Below are positions 15,484 through 62,090 of a DNA stretch of 64,000 nucleotides, one piece after another; the stretch's first letter is position 1; every line of letters starts with the position of its first letter. Below the pieces are notes generated by a model. It saw only the letters and a program-made list of their open reading frames with translations, did not search any database and was not told the origin of the DNA. The position numbers and the translations under genes were made by a program. The stretch spans positions 7,564,001 through 7,628,000 of the forward strand of contig JAHQIY010000003.1 in the NCBI GenBank assembly GCA_019054805.1, given 5' to 3'. This DNA comes from Brachionus manjavacas. Lineage: Eukaryota; Rotifera; Eurotatoria; Ploima; Brachionidae.

Positions 15484-17440
15484 TAGTAGTAGTAGTAGTA
15501 GTAGTAGTAGTTCTTGCTGCGATACCTAACATGTAGATTGTCTAAGCCCATCACCGCCAAATGGCCGTGTAGAGCTGTAGCAGCCGATTCCATTGAACTT
15601 ATCTAAAGCCATTTTAAAATTAGCGGTTGACTTGGATTTCACCACGTTTTCTGGCAACCTATTCCAATGCGGAACTACTCTGTTTGAGAAAAATACATGT
15701 CTGGCATTTACTGCAGCCGCAGAATCGTTTCTAATTTTAGCTAGGAAACTTTCTCTCTGGACTCTGATGCTATTTCCTCTTAACGCCCCGGCTGGTCCCT
15801 TGTTTTCTGATTTATTCACTAGATTCTTGACCAAGCTTACCTTTTCTATTCCATTCACTAGTTTGTACATTTCAATCAAGTCCCCTTTCACTCTTCTTTC
15901 ATTCAGCTTTGTCAGTCCTAATTTTGTCAACCTCTTTTCATACGGCAAGTTTCTTACAGACAAAGGTAATTTTGTTGCCCTCTCTTGCACCTTTTCCAAC
16001 GCATTCACGTCCATTTTCATACTTGGATTCCAAACCTGCACTGCGTAATCTAGGTGGGGTCTCACCATGGATATATACAATCTTACCCACAGTCTTTCCT
16101 CTCTACTTGTAAACGTTCGCTTTAGCATTCCAAGTACCCTACTCGCTTTTGCACAAACACTTTTCACTTGGCTGGTCCACTTTAAATCTGATGAAACCAT
16201 CACTCCAAGATCCCTTTCACAATCTGTGGTCGCTAGTATAACATTCGTGTTGCTTTTTTGTGTATATTTATGCCTTTTATTTAGTCTGCCGAAATGCATT
16301 ACTTTACATTTGTTAGCACAAAGTCCCATACGCCAAACCTCTATCCATTGACATACTGCATCCAGATCTTTCTGTAACATCTCTCTCTCATAAACATTAT
16401 TAACTATACCGAGTATTTTTGAGTCATCTGCATACAATTCCATTCTATTTGAAACGCAGTCAGGTAGGTCATTTATGTACAAAACAAATAGCAGGGGTCC
16501 AAGAACAGATCCTTAGGGAAATCCACTCAGTACCTCTGACCATCTAGAAACTTCAACTCGCTGAGTTCTCATACTCAAAAAGTCTTCGAGCCAACTTACT
16601 ATTTTCTCACCTAGTCCATAACCACGTAGTTTATGAAGAAGTCGTTGATGCGGTACCGTATCAAAAGCCTTTGAAAAGTCTAATAGTATTTCATCCACAC
16701 TGTTACCTTTGGCCAACTCAGTCGTGATCATATCAAGCGTTTCAAGTAGATTCGTTACACAACCTTTCTTTGGAACAAATCCATGTTGACTTCCAATTAT
16801 TAGATTATTCTCTTGAAGGTAAAACATTATTCGGTCCCTGACAATACCTTCAAGAACTTTACAAGCGACAGACGTCAGTGATACGGGTCGATGATTAGCT
16901 GGCTCTAATTTACTTCCTTTTTTGTAGATCGGAGACACGTTTGCTCTTTTCCAGTCTTTTGGGATTTTTCCTGTCTCTAATGATTTTTCGAAAATTATCT
17001 TCAATGGAACTGACATCGTTTTTGCGCAGTTTTTCAGTATCAGTGATGTACTTAGTCTGTGCCCATCGATTTGTTGCCATTTAATTTCTCTAGTCTCCGT
17101 TCAATCAGATCCTCGTTTAGCTCCTGCATGACATTCTCAATATCGAAAGTAGAGGAAGTACGTAAAGGAAAAAAAGGCAAATTATCATTGGTTTCTTTAT
17201 TAAAGACTGAATGAAACTGATCATTTAATAGCTCAGCTATCAGTTTTTTGCCACTCGTTACTTCACCCTCTTTTGTTCTTAACATTCTTATTTCTTCCTT
17301 TACTCCCATTTTGCTTCTTACATAGGCATAAATTAGTTTCGGATCACTATTTGCTTTTTTATACAATCTGTTCTCATAATCCGATTTTACATTTCTTAAC
17401 TTCTGTATTAACTCTCTACATGCTTTTCCATAAAAATATT
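15484..17440 (-). mobile_element. CR1/L2-like LINE, 5'-truncated, reverse transcriptase region
   Basis: Largest LINE copy in the window, read on the minus strand. From its 5' side: a pre-RT region (IQKLRNVKSDYENRLYKKAN to EKLNGNKSMGTD), then RT blocks DWKRANVSPIYKKGS, NHRPVSLTSVACKVLE, SQHGFVPKKGC and LDFSKAFDTVPH, the GSVLGPLLFVLYINDL block with ELYADDSKIL (the YADD catalytic motif), then the C-terminal RRVKGDLIEMYK and FFSNRVVPHWNRLP blocks. The endonuclease half is absent. The RT is interrupted by a nonsense codon near 16500 (Q to stop in GFPQG), and a stop plus frameshift lies near 17020-17050. The C-terminal 318 codons are open, so this is a fairly young copy. The 3' end carries CGCAG (minus, 15521-15517) and an (ACT)n tail at 15484-15510. 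Confidence 0.92.
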
Positions 17441-17679
17441 TACTTATTTCGATTTAGATTTTTAATTATCGTTTAATAATTAAAATAACAGCTTTTCATT
17501 AAAAAAAACAAACGCTTTTTCAAAACAAAATAATTCACTCTTTGATATTACAAAAAAAATATAAAAAAAATTAAATCAAAGGACAAAGTTTGGTTTGAAA
17601 TTTAATTTTTTTATAAGGATATTAGATTAGTTTAAAAATATTTTATGGACGATTTAAGAATAGAAGTGAATAAAGCTTC

Positions 17680-39324: not shown

Positions 39325-40821
39325 TTAAATACGAACAACTTGGGGTTCTATATCGAACAAACTTAATCTTAAATAAAAATCACATCCGATGCCTTGCATG
39401 CTCTGAAATGAGAGCGAGCCGCCCAAATACTCGGCGTAGGCTTTGGACGTGGGCAGACCGAAGCCATAGCCGTGCATTACTGCCAAACCAGACGCCTGAC
39501 ACATCATGCCGAAGCCGGACGGGTTCATGCAATCGTTCACCAGATTATCGGCGCCATTTTCGCCGCCACACGGCTCTTTTCGGCTCTCGTTGGCAGTCGA
39601 AAAGTGGTAATCGAAAATCTTCTCCTCCAAACTGTGCGGTATGCCGCCTCCTCTGTCTCTTATGCGAAATATAAAGTCTTTTTCGTTAACAGCTATGGTC
39701 ACGCACACATCTGGCAGGTTGCTAGAGAATCGGTGGTTTTCGGCCGTGGCACGAAACGAGTTCTTCAACAACTCGGGCATTATGTACTCGAGCGGCAGCG
39801 GTGTGTACGGAAAGTGTGAATTTATGTGTCCGTCTATTTTGACTTTGGGCGCCACGCCGTACTTCTCTATGCACAATTTAGTGACCAATTTGGCCGATGT
39901 GTCGATGAGCTTTTTGGGCGAAAATTTCTGGTGTATTATTCCGACCCATTCGTCATCGCGTGCACTCATGCTGCTGCTCGAATCGCCGCTATTCGATGGC
40001 AAATAGGTGCTGTAAAAGTTGTCACTGTTGGTCATCTTGGTCTCGAACATGTCTATGATGTCACTGGAAAGAACTGACTTGTGCAAATTTGACTGCTTGT
40101 TGAGGGCCAAGTGGTGCTCGCAGAGCAGCCGCAAACCTAGCCGAGTGGACAAGATTTTGTTCAAATGAGCCTTGATGAACGACTCGTTGATGATGTAGCG
40201 GCGCGTGTCCTTGAAGCCCTCGCACAACAGCGCCAACAAGTCCTTGTTCATTTCAAGCATGTTGAATACCAAATTGTTGAAGGCTTTTTCTGACTCGAAA
40301 TTTGTGATCTCCGTGTCGTATCGGTCAAATTGGCGAAAGGCCTTGATGCAGCGTTCGTGTATTTCCAGAATGGACGGGTGGCAGGCGACTATGAAGGGCA
40401 GGTTGCGTAGCTCCTTGATCATGTAGGCCAGTCGGACTGGAAGCTCGTTGCGCAGGTAGTTGGCACTTCGCAGCAGATGAGAATTGTTGTCCGATACGCC
40501 CATGTACATCATGGTCATTGGGTTGAGGCGAGTGAGCGGCTTTTCGGTGGCTTTGTCGATCTCGGGATCGGCGTAGAAGTAACTGATGGTGGTGAGGCGT
40601 TCCTTTGACTCCGACAGGTCTGTTCTTTTCTTGGCATAATAGGAGCTGCTCGGCTGCTGCTCCACCATCGATGAATAGTTGACATGTTGGTGCTTTTTTT
40701 TCAAGATTTTTCCAATGTAGTCGTCATTTTGGGTCGCATAGGACGCGAGTCTCAGCGCGGCTGGGCTAACCAACTTGAGGTTTGTGTACAGTTTTGACGA
40801 TGGTATCAAATGCTTGGTCAT
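39325..40821 (-). CDS. BCKDK: Branched-chain alpha-ketoacid dehydrogenase kinase (BCKDK/PDK family), intronless
   Basis: 498-residue mitochondrial protein kinase of the GHKL fold that phosphorylates and switches off the branched-chain ketoacid dehydrogenase E1. Seen: a Ser/Lys/Arg N-terminus suited to mitochondrial import; LRSANYLRNELPVRLAYMIK and LPFIVACHPSILEIHE of the regulatory helical domain; the ATP-binding N box PELLKNSFRAT (Glu350, Asn354), DRGGGIP (389-395), GYGFGLPTSKAYAEYLGGSL (451-470) and QGIGCDFYLRL. The closing VVRI resembles the BCKDK C-terminus (human ends FRI), which favours BCKDK over PDK. A serine-rich insert (about 249-291) and a longer lid region (about 410-445) lengthen it beyond human BCKDK. 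It is a single exon and much richer in G and C than any other gene here, with GC-ending codons common. That contrast suggests a retrocopy or foreign origin. Confidence 0.93.
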   Translation of the reverse strand: MTKHLIPSSKLYTNLKLVSPAALRLASYATQNDDYIGKILKKKHQHVNYSSMVEQQPSSSYYAKKRTDLSESKERLTTISYFYADPEIDKATEKPLTRLNPMTMMYMGVSDNNSHLLRSANYLRNELPVRLAYMIKELRNLPFIVACHPSILEIHERCIKAFRQFDRYDTEITNFESEKAFNNLVFNMLEMNKDLLALLCEGFKDTRRYIINESFIKAHLNKILSTRLGLRLLCEHHLALNKQSNLHKSVLSSDIIDMFETKMTNSDNFYSTYLPSNSGDSSSSMSARDDEWVGIIHQKFSPKKLIDTSAKLVTKLCIEKYGVAPKVKIDGHINSHFPYTPLPLEYIMPELLKNSFRATAENHRFSSNLPDVCVTIAVNEKDFIFRIRDRGGGIPHSLEEKIFDYHFSTANESRKEPCGGENGADNLVNDCMNPSGFGMMCQASGLAVMHGYGFGLPTSKAYAEYLGGSLSFQSMQGIGCDFYLRLSLFDIEPQVVRI

Positions 40822-43115
40822 TCTGAGTCCAATTTATTTGTCTACTCATTAATATAGAGGCAGCTCGACTCAATTTTAAAATTTTGTTTGATTCTAAGAA
40901 CACGATCACTAGTAGAATATATAGACTAGCATTCAAAGTCATATGTTCAACTAGTGATTTGTTTTTTTTTTTATGTTTTTGAAATTAAACTTTGGATTTT
41001 TGTCGAAATTATTTATGCAATTTATGAATATGAGTTGAAATTTAGTTCAATTTTTCGACTCCATGGCTTGAAAATTTAAGACTCGACTTGAGGGCTGCTC
41101 GCCCGTATGTCTTCAATTTTGGCCCATACTATTTAATATGCCTAGCAAAATGCTAATTTATTATCATGCAAAAAAAAGAAAAGAAAAGAAAATCACGCTA
41201 GTATCTAATGCAACTTAATAATTTTTTTTTTTGTTCATTTTTTTATGTGAATACTATTACGCAACTCGCGTTTCAAAATTTAATTTGCTTTCTATAATCT
41301 ACTTAGATAATAATAATAATATAAACAGTCGAGATTTGATAATAGGATCCATGGTAAATTTACATAATTTACGCAAAAATTGTAAAACTTTTTAAGAACA
41401 TTTTTTGTGTTTCAAATTTTGAAACAATTGAAAAAATAGAAAAATATATTTTTATTATTTTTTACATATTTAATGCGGCATTTGTACCAAAATTTTGACA
41501 TTAACTGCAGCATTTTTAGTCGCAACGTATCTGGAAAAAAAAGTGGGTTAAATTCATGCATTAAAATCCAGAATTCTGGTTTAAAGTGCAATGCATTAGG
41601 GGGCAAGGCATTACGGTAAATTGAATTTTATAAATAAATGTGCTTCTTAGATAATTTAGAAGTTTATTTAGAAAAATAAAGGCTGTATGTTATTTTACAA
41701 CTGTTTAATATTGTAAGAAATCCTCCTAAAAATGGGTAATTAGGTTGACCTTATAAACCCAATTGCCTCCCACCCGGTTAACCGATTAATCTATATGAGT
41801 GAGTCAAAATCTTGGGGCAAATTAAGTGATCAAATAAAGTCTGCTTTTGAATTTAAATTTATGATTGAGGCAACATTAAAGAATTTTGAAAAAAAATAAT
41901 TTAAAAAAACAAGTTTTTATTGGTAATGTATATAATTTTAATCGAAATCAATCAATTTCTCTTACAAAATGAAACTTTATAAACTACAGTGCCGGAAATT
42001 GATGTTACAAGTTAATTTCCGGCACTGTAAAAAATTTAAATTCAAAGTTCAGACTAGCTTAATTTATTTTTTGTATTCAAAAAATGAAATTACCTTATTC
42101 CTATTTAACTTTTCATTTTTTTTTCTCTTTCTTGGTTTTTATTTTTACTTTCATCACCCAAGTGTTGTTTTTTTGAAATAAATCTCTCGAGCAAAACTAA
42201 ATGCTAAATTTATTTTCAAAATAAGGTAAAATTTTCATATTAAGTTTTCAAACTCAACAGTTTTGGTCAAAACTTTAATTTTTTAAATAATAAAATATCA
42301 AATAAAAAATATGATCAGTATGAAGATTTTTTTTCCTTTAGAAAAATTCTTCTAAATGTCAGCTTTTATTTTAAATATGCTCGCTCAAAAAAAAATTGAA
42401 TAACTAGTGTAAAAAAAACGTGTATATCGACCAAAGAATAAGGTATGTAAAAATATATAAATACTGAAAAAATTTCAAAACTAATTTAAAAAAATTTTAT
42501 AACTAATAACATTTATTTATTTTTTTAATTCGTTTCTAAGTAAAGTGAATTTATTTTTTTTAATTTTAAAAGACTTGACTTTTTATATAGGACATTTAAT
42601 TACATTAAATTAAGATGAAAAACTATTCTTTTAATAAATTAAATTTTTGTGTAATTTTATTTTTTTAGAATTTTTCTAAGATTTCGATTTGCAACTTGGT
42701 TCATAATTTTTGACATAGATTGGAAATTTTAAATTTGTTAGCATAATTTTGCTTCTCATCCAGACAAATATTTTCCAATCTAGATTTTGAATAAAAAATC
42801 TATTTAAAAATTATTTTTATTAAAAATTCAAAACGATCAAGCAATAAATTTATTAAACAGCTCTTTAATCAGACATCGAAAATAAATCACATATTTTCTA
42901 AGATAAAATTTTATAAATGTAGAACAAAAACTAAAGAACAATATAAAATTTAGAATCGTTTTACGCGTAGATTCTAGGGAAAATTTGCCAATGATTTTAT
43001 ATAAAAATTTTAACAAAATGATCGAAATAAAATAGAAGAGTAAAACAAAATTAGAAACTAACATTAAATTCAAATTTAATCATAAAACATAAGAATATTT
43101 TTCGAGCATCTCAAA
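40822..43115. other. Intergenic between BCKDK and MRG15
   Basis: AT-rich. Apart from the 45-base inverted repeat at 41985-42029 no defined element or gene was recognised. A less AT-rich patch at 41735-41860 has no recognised identity. Confidence 0.5.
41985..42029. mobile_element. Minimal palindromic Tc1/mariner-like end pair (mini-MITE)
   Basis: TACAGTGCCGGAAATT (41985-42000) is followed by 13 bases and then AATTTCCGGCACTGTA (42014-42029), a perfect 16-bp inverted repeat. TA at both outer edges followed by CAGTG looks like the TA target duplication and terminal repeat of a Tc1/mariner-type element, with almost nothing left inside. It could also be a strong RNA or DNA hairpin. Confidence 0.6.
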
Positions 43116-44315: not shown

Positions 44316-44826
44316 TTTAAAAATTTTATTTTTTAGCCTTCGAATGAAAATTTTTTAATTTAGATATTTTGAAAGGAATATAAAATTTTTTTTTGATCAA
44401 AACGACTACATAACCGTGCCACCGTTTTATATTAGGGCCACAATTTGATCCTGAATCAAATATTTTTCAAACCAATTTATCGACTCCTACTGCAATATTA
44501 TATTTTTGTATTTTTTTATATAAAAAAAACATTGTTATTATATAAAAATAAATTGTAGAAAAAATGTTTAATGTCAATTTTTTTAATTTCTATTTAGTCA
44601 TAATTAAAAAAATTTAAATACGACATGAATATTAGCCACTTCCGTTTGACATTATGCAATTCTGAAAAAATTTATAATAAAAAATTAAATCTATATTCTT
44701 GATTTTTTTTTCAAAGTTTATTGAAACAAAAAGGTTTTATTTATAGTACACTAAGAAATTTTTAAAATTAATAACATTATTAAGTTTTTTAATAAAAATA
44801 AACTGAGAATAAATTAAATCTTTTTT
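44316..44826. other. Convergent intergenic space between MRG15 and ISCA1
   Basis: About 510 bases of AT-rich DNA holding the 3' ends of both genes. No gene or element recognised. Confidence 0.5.
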
Positions 44827-45222
44827 TTAAACGGTAAAACTCTCACCGCATCCGCAAGTTCCTTTAATATTTGGATTATTGAATACAAATTCACTACTTA
44901 GTGGAGATTTAACATAATCCATTTCGGTGCCAAGAAGTGACAGCTGAGCTTTGGCGTCAATGTAAATTTTGATTCCATTTTGTTCAACAATTTCGTCAAA
45001 CTTTTTTTTTTCATTTGCATATTCAAGAGTGTAGGATAATCCGCTACATCCTCTTTGTTTGACACCTATTCTTAAACCGGCAGCTTCAGGATTTTTACTC
45101 ATCAGTTCTTTGGCTCTATTCAAAGCTGTTTCGGTAAGGGTTATGGGAGCTTTTGTTGCGGCTAGTTTACGGCTCGATTTTACAGCTTTTATGCTGGCAG
45201 ATATGACAGCTCGTCCGCTCAT
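44827..45222 (-). CDS. ISCA1: Iron-sulfur cluster assembly 1 homologue (ISCA1), second cistron
   Basis: 131-residue A-type scaffold/carrier protein of mitochondrial [4Fe-4S] cluster assembly; it works with ISCA2 and IBA57. Seen: basic presequence (MSGRAVISASIKAVKSSRKLAATKAPITLT), the three cluster cysteines (Cys59 in QRGCSGLSYTLEY, Cys123 and Cys125 in GTCGCGESF) and LGTEMDYVKSPLSSEFVFNNPNIKG, nearly identical to animal ISCA1. The start is fixed because it aligns with ISCA1 from the first residues. Its ATG (45222-45220) overlaps the ISCA2 stop TGA (45221-45219) in the tetranucleotide ATGA. It has no introns and no intergenic promoter space, so it must be expressed from the ISCA2 transcript, by reinitiation, by trans-splicing inside the last ISCA2 exon, or from a promoter inside ISCA2. 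Confidence 0.97.
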   Translation of the reverse strand: MSGRAVISASIKAVKSSRKLAATKAPITLTETALNRAKELMSKNPEAAGLRIGVKQRGCSGLSYTLEYANEKKKFDEIVEQNGIKIYIDAKAQLSLLGTEMDYVKSPLSSEFVFNNPNIKGTCGCGESFTV

Positions 45223-45798
45223 ATTTTAATAGTAAATGATGAACCACAAGAGCAACCTTGTTCTGAGTTTGGATTATTTATTATGCGAAATCCTGTTCGA
45301 ATTAATTCTTCGTAATAATCAACAGTTGCGCCTTTGATAAACTCTAGAGTTTCTTTGTCAACTAAAAGTTTAGATCCTTCCTTTTCAACAACCCTTTTTT
45401 ATAATAAAATTATTATTTTTTTCAAATTTTTTATTATTCATTTACAGGTCTTGGTCACTAATTTTTGGTTCAAGAGTAAATATATAGTTAAGACCAGAGC
45501 AACCACCGGCTTCAACAGATATTTTCAAATACTGCTTGTCGGCTTGGTATATTTCTTTAAGACGCTTAAAAAATTAATTAAAAAATTCAAAAGTAAATTT
45601 TAAAAATTAAGTCCAGTTCAAGATTAGCCTTACTTTAATGCAGGGTTCGCTCAAATTTAGCCCCTCGAAATGAGCTGGATTCTGGTTTGTCTGTGTGATT
45701 TGTTTTGCTTCTGATGATGAAAGACTTTTAGCAAGGTTAAAGATGTGTTTGTTGGATGTTAAGCTGTTAGGGGATACAAGGCGTCGAACATAAAACAT
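45219..45798 (-). CDS. ISCA2: Iron-sulfur cluster assembly 2 homologue (ISCA2), first cistron, three exons
   Basis: Partner of ISCA1 in mitochondrial [4Fe-4S] maturation. Exons on the minus strand are 45798-45634, 45564-45446 and 45393-45219, all GT-AG with consistent phases, giving 152 residues. The start is MFYVRRLVSPNSL, a basic mitochondrial-type leader; an earlier in-frame ATG at 45858 would add a hydrophobic stretch and is less likely. Seen: LKISVEAGGCSGLNYIFTLE (first cysteine), VDYYEELIRTGFRIINNPNSEQGCSCGSSFTIKI (paired cysteines and the ISCA2-type SIKL-like end). The stop is the TGA of ATGA shared with the ISCA1 start, so the natural ISCA2 C-terminus, not a truncation, abuts ISCA1. 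The upstream region to LACTB (1.7 kb, divergent) should hold the unit's promoter. Confidence 0.95.
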
Positions 45799-48913: not shown

Positions 48914-50019
48914 CTTATTAAAATTTTTAAACATTTAAATTAATAAAATTGTTATTAAAAATTTTTCAATTAAATATTTTTTTGAAAAGTCCATAGAATG
49001 ACTTTAACGAAAATTATCCAATATATTAACTTATTAAATTTTTAATTTTCCAATCTAATGTCATAATTGAAAAACTAATTTTTTATTTTTTTTTCTCCTC
49101 CCTGAAAGAATCTTTTTTATTAAAAGATTAATTTTTTTTTTTAAAATTGTCAATAAATGTTTCTTGTTATATAAAAGCTAAATTTGAAGTCTATTTACAG
49201 TAAACCAAAGGGAAGAAGACAAAGATAAGTAATTTAAAAATATTTTTATTTAATTTTAAAAAAATAATAATATTTTTGTATTTTCTTATTTATGCTAAAA
49301 TTTAAGAAATTAAAAAGGAATTAAAATTAAAAAAAATATTTTAAATAAAAAATATTTCATTTTAAGAAAAATAATATATATCTGATGAATATAAATAATA
49401 AAGATATTTTAGTTTGTTTGTATTTGGTTGTGATTTTTAGAATATTAAATAAAAATTAGATGTCTTTATACGCAATATTCAGACGACTCATGTATTTACA
49501 TTTTAGTATCGCTATTAAAAATTGATCTAATTAACATCCTTTTCATGCAAAAACTTAATGGTGCTAGGACAGACTTTTTGTATAATCCAATTTAAGGTGA
49601 ATAAAGAAATTAAAAAAAGCATTCTTTTCGGAATTCATTTAATTTTAAATAAGCGTTTCAAAGTCTTTATTAATTATATAAATTTTTTTCTGATTTAATT
49701 ACATTTAATTTTTTTCCCATAACAATCTAATTTAAATGAAAAGTTCTAATTTATTTAATTGAAATTCAGAAACCGCCAAATCAAATATAAAAAATAATCG
49801 AATCCATAAAAAATTGTTAAGTATTTCATTAATATTTAATTAAAAATTGAGAAAGTAAAGTTGACAAAATAATCTTCAAAATTGTGACTAGTAGAAATTT
49901 TTTTCTTTACAACACAGTAAAAAATTAATTTTATATTACATGATTTGGTGATTTTAACTAATAAAAACTAATGAAAATTTTTCAAATAGAATCAAATTTT
50001 TAAAAAAATTAATTCAAAA
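48914..50019. other. Intergenic, no gene recognised
   Basis: AT-rich DNA between LACTB and the short p62 copy. The last about 30 bases before 50020 resemble the leader before the full p62 gene only weakly. Confidence 0.5.
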
Positions 50020-50592
50020 ATGAACATTCAAATAAAGTGTTATCTGTTTGAGAATTGTCCAACTTTATCATCGCTAACTGTGAGTCAACCAAGTGAGATC
50101 AGACGGTTTGCAATAACAGCTAAATGTACTGCTATACTTTACAAAATAATCTATGAAAAAATTCGTGTTGCCTATGGTTCATTAATTAAACCAAATGACG
50201 AAATTAAGACATATTGGATTGATGAAGAGAACGACCTGGTATGTTTTTCCACTGACGAGGAAGCAAATTTTGGCATGGAAATGCAAACAGCAATTGGTTC
50301 AAGCAAAAATATGAGCTCCAGTCCATTTTTCAAAATTTATGTTGGGATCAAGAGAGCTAATGAGCCATCAGGGTCAAGTGAAGAGCCCCAGATTCATTCT
50401 GGAGTTGTATGTGATGGTTGCAATGGCAGTATTATTGGTACCAGAAACAGATGCACAATTTGCCTGGACTTTGATTTGTGTTCAGACTGCAAAAATAAAG
50501 ATATTCACAAAGAACATGAGTTTATAGTGTTCAATAAACCTGTGCGACAAATATGTCCTCATGTGAGCCAAAAAAAAAGGCGTCGAATATGA
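50020..50592 (+). CDS. Short p62-like paralogue with PB1 and ZZ domains only
   Basis: 190 residues in one exon. PB1 domain (about 3-109) with the basic EIRRF patch and the acidic DEENDLVCFSTDEE (OPCA) patch, so it could still polymerise or bind PB1 partners. ZZ zinc finger (about 129-168) with all Cys pairs and the closing His residues (VCDGCNGSIIG, CTICLDFDLCSDC, IHKEHEF). It stops soon after the ZZ domain with a basic KKRRRI tail that could act as a nuclear signal, and lacks the LC3-interacting motif and UBA domain of the full gene at 57747. It is a direct-orientation duplicate 7.7 kb from it. A central tract (50160-50326) is base-for-base identical with the full copy while the first 140 bases differ at many sites. 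It may be a functional competitor of p62 or a decaying duplicate; the open frame favours function. Confidence 0.82.
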   Translation: MNIQIKCYLFENCPTLSSLTVSQPSEIRRFAITAKCTAILYKIIYEKIRVAYGSLIKPNDEIKTYWIDEENDLVCFSTDEEANFGMEMQTAIGSSKNMSSSPFFKIYVGIKRANEPSGSSEEPQIHSGVVCDGCNGSIIGTRNRCTICLDFDLCSDCKNKDIHKEHEFIVFNKPVRQICPHVSQKKRRRI

Positions 50593-54059: not shown

Positions 54060-54680
54060 AATCACGTTTGTTTAATTAGCTCGTCACCTCGTCACTCGCA
54101 AAAAATAGTGCGTTAGCTCTGTCGTCGATTTTTTCTATATTTAGTGTCTTATGTATAGTTTCGATGCTTGTTTTTATCGGGAAAATTTTAATGATTCGAA
54201 AAATTTTGTTTTGAAAAATTTGAAGGTCATGAGGATTTTTTGTGTTCCAATTTGAAGAATGACAAAGCAATAGTCGAATAACGATCTGATGAGAAATTTA
54301 TATAGCATTTTAATTATGTTGAGTGATGACTTCCATTTGAACTCTTTAATTTTTCGTAGAATGTTGATTTTGGGTGTCGCTTTCTTGATTAGTTCACGAA
54401 AATGATCGGCATATTTTAGTTTAGAGTCGAGTTTAATGCCGAGGAAAGCTGGATTTGGTTCGACAGGGATTAGTTCGTTTTCAATTTTCAGTTCGATTGA
54501 GTATTTGTAGACGTAATTTTTCCTTGGGCCAGCGCTTGTGAACATCGTGTAGCACGCTTTAGTCTTATTAATTGTAAGTCCCCATTTTTTGCAAAGCTCA
54601 ACAATTTTAGTAACGTCGCTTTGTCTTAATTGTACGCTTTGATCTGTGTGTGAACCAGATGAATAGATCTTCCGCAAATA
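54060..54680 (-). mobile_element. LINE reverse transcriptase C-terminal fragment, Jockey/I-like
   Basis: The minus strand reads VELCKKWGLTINKTKACYTMFTSAGPRK, NPAFLGIKLDSKLKYADHF, INILRKIKEFKWKSS and YKFLIRSLFDYCF, and after a frameshift near 54250, SSNWNTKNPHDLQIFQNKIFRIIK. This is the post-catalytic part of a LINE RT (WGLxxNxxKTxxxxF block). The frame is largely intact but both ends are missing. It is a different family from the (ACT)n-tailed copies. Confidence 0.75.
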
Positions 54681-54860
54681 GGGCTATGATTCATAGATGA
54701 AACACCCATGAAGTATCGATTTAAGCTTGACTTGAAACTTAGTAACAAATAAATCAAGAACTCAGAAAGAAGCTTAACGGTAAAGTGGTAACATCCAAAT
54801 GGCCGACACAACCTCAGTCTTGATTCTTGAAACTGAAAACCTACAGAGAGATTCCAAACA

Positions 54861-56626: not shown

Positions 56627-57746
56627 TAAATTAAAATTGTGGAAAAATTCTTAAGCAATATTTTTATAGTGTGATCGGGAAATAAATTCATGTTAATCAT
56701 TTACTTTAGAACACAAATGGTCGATTTTGAACTCTAAAATTTGATTTAAAATTATTTTGATTTTAAAGTTCATTTTTTTTTTATAAATATTGCTGTTTTT
56801 TAAATAGATTTCTCATAAAGTATAGTCAATATATGAATATCAAATAAACAGGTCTACAAATTTTTAACTAAGTAAAAATTTCAGGTTGGCATGGGTAAGT
56901 CATTCTTAACAGACCTAAAATTTGGCACATGAATTGGATGAAGGGACGCATGCAAAAACTATACCTCAACCATCTATATTTGGCTAAGTTATTAAAACAT
57001 TAAGATCTTCTTCAATTAATTCCTTAAAAAAATCTGTCATCAAATGGAGCATTTTATATTTTTATAATTAAAAAGTAAATTGAATAGATTCAGTTTGACC
57101 TTCATTAATAATTTTTTTCAAGCTAAATATCTACAAATTTGTTTAGTTGGTATATATAAAATTAAAATCCTATTTTTAAAATTGTTTTATAATTTTTAAA
57201 TTTTTGTGTGAATATGAAAAATAAATATTAGTCATAAAAGAATTATGCATTTTTAGAATTAACAGTATTGCAACAAAAAAAGATGAGAAAATTTTTTCGT
57301 AATGTTATCTTGAAAAATAAATTTAGAAACACAAAATTTATTACGATAAAGGAATAAAAGAGAGAATCTTTTTCTGGAAAATGTTCGAAAAAATTTCTTA
57401 ATTTCTTTTTAATAATTGATTTTTTTAACTGAATCACATTACTAATCAAAATTGAAAATTTTATTTCAAAAAACATATTTATATAAAAGAAGACTATGAA
57501 TGTTCCGGTGACCTTAAAGTTTACCAGAATTTTCTCGAGCTTTCGTTCCGCGATCCCTTTTCCTTGCATTTTATTAGCATAATAGAATGATAAAATCATT
57601 CGTATATTATATAGGAATTTAAATTTCGCAAAAGAAAATTGAGAAATCCATTTCAAATTCGCTTAATCAACTTTAAAATTTTAGTATAAATAATAAAGAA
57701 ATTTTTCTAAAATAAAAATAAAAATTTACAAGAAAAATTATCAACA

Positions 57747-59063
57747 ATGAACATTCAAATTAAGTCTTATTTATATGCGAATAGTTCAACTATTTCATCG
57801 CTGACTCTGAGTCAACCAAGTGAGATCAGACGGTTTGCAATAACCGCTGAAAGAACTACCAATCTATACAAGAAAATATGCGAAAGAATTCGTGTTGCCT
57901 ATGGTTCATTAATTAAACCAAATGACGAAATTAAGACATATTGGATTGATGAAGAGAACGACCTGGTATGTTTTTCCACTGACGAGGAAGCAAATTTTGG
58001 CATGGAAATGCAAACAGCAATTGGTTCAAGCAAAAATATGAGCTCCAGTCCATTATTCAAAATTTATGTTTGTATCAAGAGAGCTAATGAGCCATCAGTG
58101 TCAAGTGAAGAGCCCCAAATTCATCCTGGAGTTGTATGTGATGGTTGCAATGGCAGTATTATTGGTACTAGATACACCTGCACTACATGTCCCGACTTTG
58201 ACTTGTGTTCAGACTGCAAAAATAAAGATATTCACAAAGAACATGAGTTTATAGTGTTCCAAAAACCTGCGCGACAAAGATGTCCATATGGAAGACAAAG
58301 AAGATTTTTTGGAAATTTTAACAAAAACTGCCACAACCAACGACCAAGCTCGTCTAATACAAACACTACACAAAATCCATTCTCGAACATTTTTCCATTA
58401 ATTTCAAACGCTGTACCCATGGTAAACGATCCTGAGGCTTTGACAAATTTCGGTGAACATTTAAAGAAATTTTTGGACCCTTTCGGAATAGATGTCAGCT
58501 ACTATATTGATTCCAATCAAAATAAACAAAACAATGAGCAGAAAAAAACAAGAGAAGAAGAGAAAAAAAGCGAAGAAAAAGCGCCAACTGAGGAACCACA
58601 AACTTTGAGTTTTCAGAATATTTCTCAAAATGAAAATGAGACACTTATTGACTTATCTAAAGATGATCAAAAAGTTAAATTAGAAACATGTCTATCTAAT
58701 GACAGTATACCAACTCTATCATATGAAAAACTTTCAGCACAAACAGAAGCTTCAAACACTCTTGAATCAGCAGCCAATTCTCTTAAGGATGCTATAGACA
58801 ATCAAAATTTTGCTGGATATCCAAAGTTGTCGTCGATTGAAAAAGAAAAAGAAGAGGAAAAGAAAAAATCAGAAACAATTCAAGATGCCGAAGATAATGG
58901 ATTTAACGTTGTAGATATTGAGAAAGAGCTGAAATATATCAAATGTGTTGAGCAATTGACAAACATGGGCTACACAGATGAGGCTGGTTGGTTGTCTAGA
59001 TTGGTGATTGCCAAAGATGGCAATATCAACAATGTCTTAGATGCTCTTCAACCATCAAAATAA
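57747..59063 (+). CDS. SQSTM1: Sequestosome-1/p62 (SQSTM1, ref(2)P type) autophagy receptor
   Basis: 438 residues in one exon; a selective-autophagy adaptor that polymerises, binds ubiquitinated cargo and links it to LC3/Atg8 membranes. Seen in order: PB1 domain (about 3-109; EIRRF basic patch and YWIDEENDLVCFSTDEE acidic patch), ZZ zinc finger (129-168; HPGVVCDGCNGSIIGTR as in animal p62), a FGEHLKKFLDPFGIDVSYYI segment matching the helix after ZZ in human p62 (NVGESVAAALSPLGIEVDI), a long charged disordered region, a candidate LC3-interacting motif FNVV at 386-389 after acidic residues (AEDNG), and the UBA domain (397-438; CVEQLTNMGYTDEAGWLSRLVIAKDGNINNVLDAL). Stop and an AATAAA overlap at 59059-59064. 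A truncated paralogue lies upstream at 50020. Confidence 0.96.
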   Translation: MNIQIKSYLYANSSTISSLTLSQPSEIRRFAITAERTTNLYKKICERIRVAYGSLIKPNDEIKTYWIDEENDLVCFSTDEEANFGMEMQTAIGSSKNMSSSPLFKIYVCIKRANEPSVSSEEPQIHPGVVCDGCNGSIIGTRYTCTTCPDFDLCSDCKNKDIHKEHEFIVFQKPARQRCPYGRQRRFFGNFNKNCHNQRPSSSNTNTTQNPFSNIFPLISNAVPMVNDPEALTNFGEHLKKFLDPFGIDVSYYIDSNQNKQNNEQKKTREEEKKSEEKAPTEEPQTLSFQNISQNENETLIDLSKDDQKVKLETCLSNDSIPTLSYEKLSAQTEASNTLESAANSLKDAIDNQNFAGYPKLSSIEKEKEEEKKKSETIQDAEDNGFNVVDIEKELKYIKCVEQLTNMGYTDEAGWLSRLVIAKDGNINNVLDALQPSK

Positions 59064-61198: not shown

Positions 61199-62090
61199 TA
61201 ATGTAGTAATAGTAGTGTAGTAAATAAGTTTATAATGTAGTAAATACTGCGACCCTAACGGGTTAAGCTTCTTTAAAGCTATGGCAATAAATTAGACTGT
61301 TTCCTCAGCCATTTGTCCAAGTTAATTTTGAAGTTATTAATTGATCCAGAACTGATGATGTACTGAGGAAGACTATTCCAAACATTAACTATTCGGTTTG
61401 TCAAGAAATGATATCGTTGCATACAATTTTTCGCATCTTCTCTAACAATAAACTTGTTATGTCCTCTTAAGTTGTAAGAGTGATTTCGAGAAAAATTAAT
61501 ACCATTTTCAAAATTGATAGTTTCATATCTGTTAATAATTTTAAACAGTTGGATTAAGTCGCCTCTGATCCGCCTTATTTTAAGATTTGTAAAGTTTAAC
61601 ATTTCCAGTCTTTTCGAGTAGTCATATTTTCGAAGTGAAGGGATTATTCTTGTCGCTCTTCTTTGGAGCTTCTCGATTTCAGAAATGTCTTTTTCAAAGA
61701 ACGGACACCATAAGCAAATGGCAAACTCTAAATGAGGTCTAACCAGTGCTGTATAAAACATTCTGAATGTATCAATGTTCAACTTCCTGAAACTCTTAGC
61801 GATCATACCCAAAATACGGTTTCCACGACTAGTACAATATTTTACTTGGTTAGTCCACTTCAAGTAACTTTGAATATAAACACCCAGATCTCTTTCAAGA
61901 TTTGTTTTAGATAAATTCTTCGTTCCATATCTACTAAATATTGTGTAATAAAACAAATGATTTTTTGAGCCAATATGCATAACACCGCATTTTTTAAATA
62001 TTTAAATCCAACGACCAAGTAAGTGACCAGCTTGAAATAAAGTCAATATCTTTTTGAAGTACAAGATTGCCTTGTAAACTCTAAATTACA
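61199..62090 (-). mobile_element. CR1/L2-like LINE 3' part
   Basis: A 233-codon open frame (61980-61279) holds the RT C-terminal region: NLERDLGVYIQSYLKWTNQV, FYTALVRPHLEFAICLWCPF, KLQRRATRIIPSLRKYDYSKRL, RRIRGDLIQLFKII and HFLTNRIVNVWNSLPQYI. Upstream, after a frameshift near 61985, LQKDIDFISSWS can be read to about 62085, where it ends. The 3' end has an ACCC/GGGT stem (61252-61263), CGCAG (61251-61247) and an imperfect (ACT)n tail (61199-61245). 5'-truncated; related to but clearly diverged from the 15484 copy. Confidence 0.88.

Follow-up and report, generated by a model that had tools for sequence, protein, structure and literature searches.

The window, by which we mean the whole 64,000-nucleotide stretch of Brachionus manjavacas DNA analyzed here, carries on its minus strand a gene for ISCA2 directly followed by a gene for ISCA1. 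ISCA2 consists of three exons with a 459-nt coding sequence, encoding 152 amino acids and ending in SSFTIKI; with respect to this reading frame, ISCA1 is shifted by -1. The features of the locus, in the order of transcription, are the following.

45634..45798, minus strand: ISCA2 exon 1, with the start ATG at 45798-45796 in the context TTA ATG T
45759..45791, minus strand: out-of-frame ATG, 7 nt past the ISCA2 start, opening a 10-codon ORF plus stop
45565..45633, minus strand: ISCA2 intron 1, 69 nt, GT-AG
45446..45564, minus strand: ISCA2 exon 2
45394..45445, minus strand: ISCA2 intron 2, 52 nt, GT-AG; the unspliced donor reads CTG TAA
45219..45393, minus strand: ISCA2 exon 3, with the C-terminus GCSCGSSFTIKI and the TGA stop at 45221-45219
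45219..45222, minus strand: ATGA overlap of the ISCA2 stop with the ISCA1 start
44827..45222, minus strand: ISCA1, one exon, 131 amino acids, N-terminus MSGRAVIS, start context AAT ATG A
44717..44741, minus strand: a pair of AATAAA hexamers resembling poly(A) signals, 85 and 104 nt past the ISCA1 stop

A preliminary description of this DNA had the ISCA2 exon ending in SSFTIKI and its stop sharing ATGA with the ISCA1 start, and this is indeed what is seen at 45222-45219. The CTCAG site it had placed about 45 bases upstream of the ISCA1 ATG is present as well, but at a distance of 40 bases, counted by eye. A TAA stands in the ISCA1 frame two codons 5' of the ISCA1 ATG. We therefore rejected a stop read-through fusion of the two proteins, which is impossible here because ISCA1 is out of frame and preceded by this TAA; because of the TAA, a -1 frameshift fusion would be confined to the last ISCA2 codons. 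The poly(A)-like hexamers are not decisive, since AATAAA or ATTAAA also occurs inside the ISCA2 gene (45639, 45435, 45282, and 45230), near the ISCA1 end (44868), and further downstream (44793, 44587, and 44572).

Both proteins matched TIGR00049, the A-type Fe-S carrier family, with 101.9 bits for ISCA2 and 125.3 bits for ISCA1 (cut-off, 58.8), and both harbor the cysteine motifs (GGCSG/RGCSG and CxCG), across which they align with solved bacterial IscA- and SufA-type proteins. By eye, the two leaders look basic, and that of ISCA2 (MFYVRRLVSP...) looks mitochondrial. The identities assigned earlier are supported, as is the proposed functional partnership of the two products.

Elsewhere in the window, two plus-strand genes (49990-50592 and 57711-59063) closely resemble each other in their N-terminal halves, which look PB1/ZZ-like by eye, and are probably a recent duplication. 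Reverse-transcriptase-like (LINE) pieces were recognized by eye from ORF translations at 15526-17453, 54174-54683, and 61279-62001, all on the minus strand. An intronless 502-codon open frame at 39325-40833 (minus strand) resembles, by eye, a mitochondrial PDK/BCKDK-type kinase, and the GC content of the window, taken in 2-kb bins, peaks at 40001-42000 (0.359).

Among the best 120 of 2026 rows, the closest named relative of ISCA1 was that of the monogonont rotifer Brachionus calyciflorus (90%), and two further relatives were closer still (93 and 92%); judging from these identities, the host would be a monogonont close to Brachionus. A PF01521 search of the species' own assembly (114 Mb, 61 contigs, of which the window's contig makes up 9.76 Mb) gave three matches, namely the window ISCA1 and two on bacterial contigs. 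This search worked exon by exon; it missed ISCA2, which is split by introns, and would likewise overlook another such copy. One bacterial contig (C21, 1.22 Mb, locus L003) carries neighboring IscU and IscA genes and is Rickettsia-like by eye, and the other (C42, 0.33 Mb, locus L002) carries neighboring SufA and SufB genes; both may represent symbionts of the rotifer or contamination. A bacterial transfer of the pair was rejected, given that the nearest named ISCA1 relative is from a rotifer and that the IscA and SufA copies of the bacteria reside on different contigs. The locus resembles bacterial isc/suf operons, such as the two clusters on these contigs, in the adjacency of Fe-S assembly genes, but it is nuclear, bears introns, and encodes animal ISCA2 and ISCA1. 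Two scans of viral contigs and one of genome contigs, judged from their tables, revealed no apparent rotifer DNA of relatives and returned A-type carriers that were bacterial or from the viral collection (10 loci; 461 relatives, 80 of them kept; 59 loci). As a separate observation, many contigs of the viral collection (L076-L155 and L004-L013) encode A-type Fe-S carriers, 461 being relatives of the ISCA2 profile and 10 of ISCA1.

The linkage of the two genes was also seen in other rotifers. In B. calyciflorus, part of ISCA2 (database row P0084) and ISCA1 (P0101) both lie on a contig of 9198 nt, and up to 11 other rotifer-like contigs carry both genes as judged by identical contig size. Sizes that recur in the ISCA2 and the ISCA1 search are 9198 (B. 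calyciflorus in both), 8512, 4059, and 1563, along with several around 1 kb. When the ISCA1 side was taken as the best 120 of 2026 rows, 14 of the 51 ISCA2 rows on contigs shorter than 60 kb matched the contig size of an ISCA1 row exactly, whereas 120 controls with the sizes shifted by 1 to 60 in either direction gave 2.7 matches on average and never more than 8. For ISCA2 rows with the rotifer-type MF[HYN] start, the count was 11 of 19 (null mean, 1.8; maximum, 7). The ISCA2 row P0045 (26404) and the ISCA1 row P0202 (2466) were left out; neither matches, and with P0045 the count is 14 of 52. Some single size matches may be due to chance. Protein distances agreed between ISCA2 and ISCA1 over 12 pairs (Mantel r = 0.62, p = 5e-5) and over the 8 pairs near 1 kb (r = 0.83, p = 2e-4), as would be the case if the two members of every pair stem from the same organism; P0020/P0207 (1204, the same size as P0017) and P0097/P0180 had been dropped from this test as probable chance matches.

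A joined ISCA2-ISCA1 query retrieved at least seven proteins pairing both domains among the best 120 of 1053 rows: those of the bdelloids Adineta vaga, A. ricciae, Rotaria socialis, R. sp. Silwood1, R. sordida, and R. magnacalcarata (P0220 to P0224 and P0202, the R. magnacalcarata protein being partial, with its ISCA2 half cut) and the monogonont-like P0219. Four of these were checked with Pfam, and each contains two PF01521 stretches. The bdelloid junctions are species specific (EQGCSCASAFVSGSIRAV, EQASTLVSGSIRAV, EQGCSCGSIRAI, EQGCSCGRRL, EQGRRL, and EQGSIRAI), and the usual ISCA2 tail after CSC is missing from all six, CSC itself being missing as well in P0221, P0224, and P0202. Because the tail is missing, we read the bdelloid proteins as probable gene models merging two neighboring genes rather than as real fusions. 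In P0219 (285 amino acids, contig of 1062), ISCA2 and ISCA1 follow each other in a single frame (...FSIKI-W-FNT-MSSKLIS...), and the W may be encoded by TGG, in a true fusion, or by TGA read under code 4, which would leave a 9-nt spacer. Two further candidates, P0225 and P0306, were rejected as ISCA2-ISCA1 pairs because each repeats one IscA-type domain, P0306 (203 amino acids) being a tandem IscA-type duplication.

The ISCA2-ISCA1 linkage is conserved, being found in both monogonont-like and bdelloid rotifers. Chance adjacency or an assembly error in the window, for which we found no support, is exceedingly unlikely in view of the same pair in B. calyciflorus, in other rotifer-like contigs, and in bdelloids. 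According to sections of PMC12460157, rotifer genomes appear to have scrambled the ancestral linkage groups completely, and that the pair nevertheless stays together in monogononts and bdelloids suggests constraint.

The junction itself is more variable. In three ISCA1 relatives (P0140, P0131, and P0153), the N terminus is extended by residues that match, over 9 to 11 codons, an ISCA2 tail and its stop read in a shifted frame, and from these frame-shifted N termini we derived stop-to-ATG spacers of 1, 28, and 37 nt, respectively. Two of 84 control extensions fit over 4 or 5 codons and the remaining 82 not at all, and shuffled versions of the three extensions (40 each) reached 5 at most. Among extended rotifer-type ISCA1 proteins, three of four fit a shifted ISCA2 tail. 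The extension of P0110 (MLHFQLNYKKKT), similar to such a tail by hand, was rejected since it fits none of 11 observed tails. A stricter version of the test recovered P0140 but missed P0153; P0131, a rotifer case too, came up there from within the set of 46 controls. Close adjacency at the junction is thus borne out in three relatives, in which the genes abut as well, but with spacers of 1, 28, and 37 nt, the ATGA overlap is not conserved. ISCA2 intron 1 also varies, its position being read through in three 95-amino-acid relatives (P0009, P0014, and P0019). These three, found on contigs of 2.5 to 8.5 kb, end in ...DQDL, where a reading of the unspliced intron-2 donor stops, as genomic DNA would give.

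Eight of the pairs lie on contigs of 990 to 1204 nt that exceed the two coding sequences by 123 to 328 nt and in which ISCA2 is uninterrupted. The mean untranslated regions of Brachionus plicatilis are 52 and 94 nt, as given in parts of PMC1925144. These contigs could be intronless genomic pieces, but they look like dicistronic mRNAs. Together with the linkage in other rotifers, they support the dicistronic unit proposed in the preliminary description, and the window species too may make a single mature ISCA2-ISCA1 mRNA. A single promoter 5' of ISCA2 and a single poly(A) site 3' of ISCA1 would yield an mRNA of about 1 kb with both frames.

Two explanations would do without such a shared mature message. 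If ISCA1 had its own promoter inside ISCA2, the tight packing would merely be inherited; the several AATAAA/ATTAAA hexamers within ISCA2 would fit this, as would the fly dicistronic loci, for 45 of 159 of which PMC4528330 gives evidence of monocistronic transcripts from each of the two genes. Against it stand the contigs of about 1 kb with both complete frames in several relatives and the retention of the linkage in genomes as scrambled as those described in PMC12460157, and we consider it improbable. We grant equally little weight to the idea, raised earlier as an alternative, that an operon-like pre-mRNA is cleaved, with a spliced leader being joined to ISCA1 at a site within the last ISCA2 exon. 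An AG does lie 40 nt before the ISCA1 ATG, and in bdelloids, over half of all mRNAs carry an added 23-nt leader (cited in PMC1925144). However, the same source, in the passages concerned, reports no leader among B. plicatilis ESTs, its authors leaving a small trans-spliced subset possible, and we did not find the bdelloid leader with up to three mismatches in the 114-Mb assembly in a search that skipped very common words and that recovered a window 23-mer carrying two changes as a control. A different leader would escape that search.

In the spliced message, counted from the ISCA2 start, ATGs are found at 0 (T at -3, T at +4), at +7 (out of frame, T at -3), and at +455 (ISCA1, A at -3); apart from the one at +7, no frame contains an ATG between the two starts. 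We compared these contexts, in the window species only, with those of Ras and histone genes of the same genome; 50 loci were given, 37 were usable, and 25 contexts were distinct, with starts chosen by rule and some of them doubtful (one, TTTTAG ATG at L156, abuts a likely splice acceptor). A purine stands at -3 in 20 of these 25 contexts, and none combines T at -3 with T at +4. By eye, all seven other starts in the window have A at -3. Several observations nevertheless count against leaky scanning past the ISCA2 start: 2 of the 25 control contexts are weak too, having neither a purine at -3 nor a G at +4, an in-frame ATG lies at -60 upstream of the ISCA2 start, and an out-of-frame ATG is present at +7.

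ISCA2 is also poor in methionine. Eighteen rotifer-type sequences contain no internal methionine in 2852 residues, compared to 34 in 4528 residues from 30 other animals. The difference holds for the leader (0/952 versus 11/1323; Fisher p = 0.0036) and for the core (0/1900 versus 23/3205; Fisher p = 3e-5), both tests ignoring shared ancestry. The rotifer-type set comprises 17 database rows, picked by eye and including P0017 and P0219, plus the window protein; the shortened P0009, P0014, P0019, and P0084, which also have a single methionine, were omitted from it. The controls were hand-picked named animal rows (31, or 30 in the residue count, from which P0040 was left out), with plants, partial sequences, and several nematode and further rows left aside. 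In ISCA1, 93 rows (P0099 to P0191) contain 286 internal methionines in 12095 residues. Counting against a special feature of ISCA2, the ISCA1 leaders are methionine poor too (5/2112 residues), and 14 of the 31 named other animals have a single-methionine ISCA2. Furthermore, the one all-frame ATG within the window ISCA2 does not differ significantly from codon shuffles (mean, 2.75; P = 0.11; P = 0.26 if the start and junction ATGs are included). An MF[H/Y]V N terminus is found in 17 of the 21 ISCA2 rows beginning with MF[HYN], and, judging from the protein sequence, such a start would allow the out-of-frame AUG at +7 in most rotifer-type ISCA2 genes.

The preliminary description had favored coupling by termination-reinitiation at the ATGA, with ribosomes of the dicistronic mRNA terminating at the ISCA2 stop and reinitiating at the overlapping or nearby ISCA1 AUG. 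The overlap in the window would suit this, and so would the short spacers, stop and start lying 1 to 37 nt apart in three relatives. However, reinitiation after a frame as long as 152 codons is usually inefficient in eukaryotes unless a special element is present. TGGGA is the core of the viral motif that pairs with 18S rRNA in termination-reinitiation, and neither TGGGA nor GGGA occurs in the 108 nt upstream of ISCA1 (45330-45215 scanned), which counts against this mechanism. Moreover, the overlap is not conserved, and reinitiation leaves the weak ISCA2 start unexplained. The scarcity of AUGs in ISCA2 could partly serve reinitiation as well, following an argument made in a section of PMC11892635. 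Given the variable spacers, the missing motif, the weak ISCA2 start, and the lack of internal methionine in ISCA2, reinitiation is less supported than the preliminary description had it; we regard it as rather unlikely to be the main route and favor leaky scanning for ISCA1. The two mechanisms are not mutually exclusive.

We thus consider it fairly probable that the pair forms one dicistronic nuclear unit kept through rotifer evolution, from which ISCA1 is made mainly by leaky scanning. ISCA2 would be made by ribosomes starting at the first, poorly placed AUG, and ISCA1 mainly by ribosomes leaking past it, which would meet one other, also poor, AUG en route and then the ISCA1 AUG, where the A at -3 would favor initiation. 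Tentatively, and with distinctly less confidence, one may picture a phylum-wide animal operon without spliced leader, predating the split between monogononts and bdelloids and tuned by the weak ISCA2 AUG. In this extended picture, the +7 AUG encoded by MF[H/Y]V could open a tiny frame after which leaking ribosomes reinitiate at ISCA1, and lineages of the P0219 type may have a true fusion.

Leaky scanning from a two-gene message is not without precedent. In the Drosophila dicistronic transcripts of Wall et al. 2005, translation of the second cistron is reportedly tied, as the title has it, to the absence of in-frame AUGs from the first. The rotifer unit shares with them a first cistron without internal in-frame AUG, but the fly genes are different ones, and the rotifer pair encodes pathway partners and is found in two rotifer subclasses. 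Green-algal bicistronic nuclear loci read by leaky scanning, as described in sections of PMC11892635, consist of two adjacent frames with a short spacer, a weak first start context, a better second one, and few AUGs before the second frame, and the rotifer unit resembles them. It differs in belonging to an animal lineage, in that the two frames overlap in the window where the algal loci have a spacer, and in being known from sequence alone. A conserved, functionally linked example in animals is the Mocs2/CG42503 pair of flies, one of 159 dicistronic pairs in Drosophila, the products of which, the molybdopterin synthase subunits, act together (parts of PMC4528330); the rotifer pair is from a different pathway and gene family. 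Spliced-leader operons of nematodes and chaetognaths (the latter in parts of PMC12460157) also contain same-strand genes with small gaps, but they are resolved to monocistronic mRNAs by the leader, for which the B. plicatilis ESTs gave no evidence (PMC1925144).

The statement that such an arrangement is rare for nuclear animal genes was too strong, as, according to PMC4528330, a polycistronic transcript is part of 2.5% of the protein-coding gene models in flies. Among the literature entries viewed, none described a dicistronic mRNA from a rotifer. That animals have dicistronic genes is already known; what the present locus would add is the pair itself as a conserved dicistronic unit, with a specific proposed mechanism. 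Sharing one mRNA would presumably balance two partners of mitochondrial [4Fe-4S] assembly. Since bdelloids have a leader and B. plicatilis ESTs show none, finding the same pair in both groups also makes it possible to study how a message for two genes persists when trans-splicing is gained or lost. Finally, the pair offers a natural and compact test of leaky scanning as the setter of the ratio between partner proteins.
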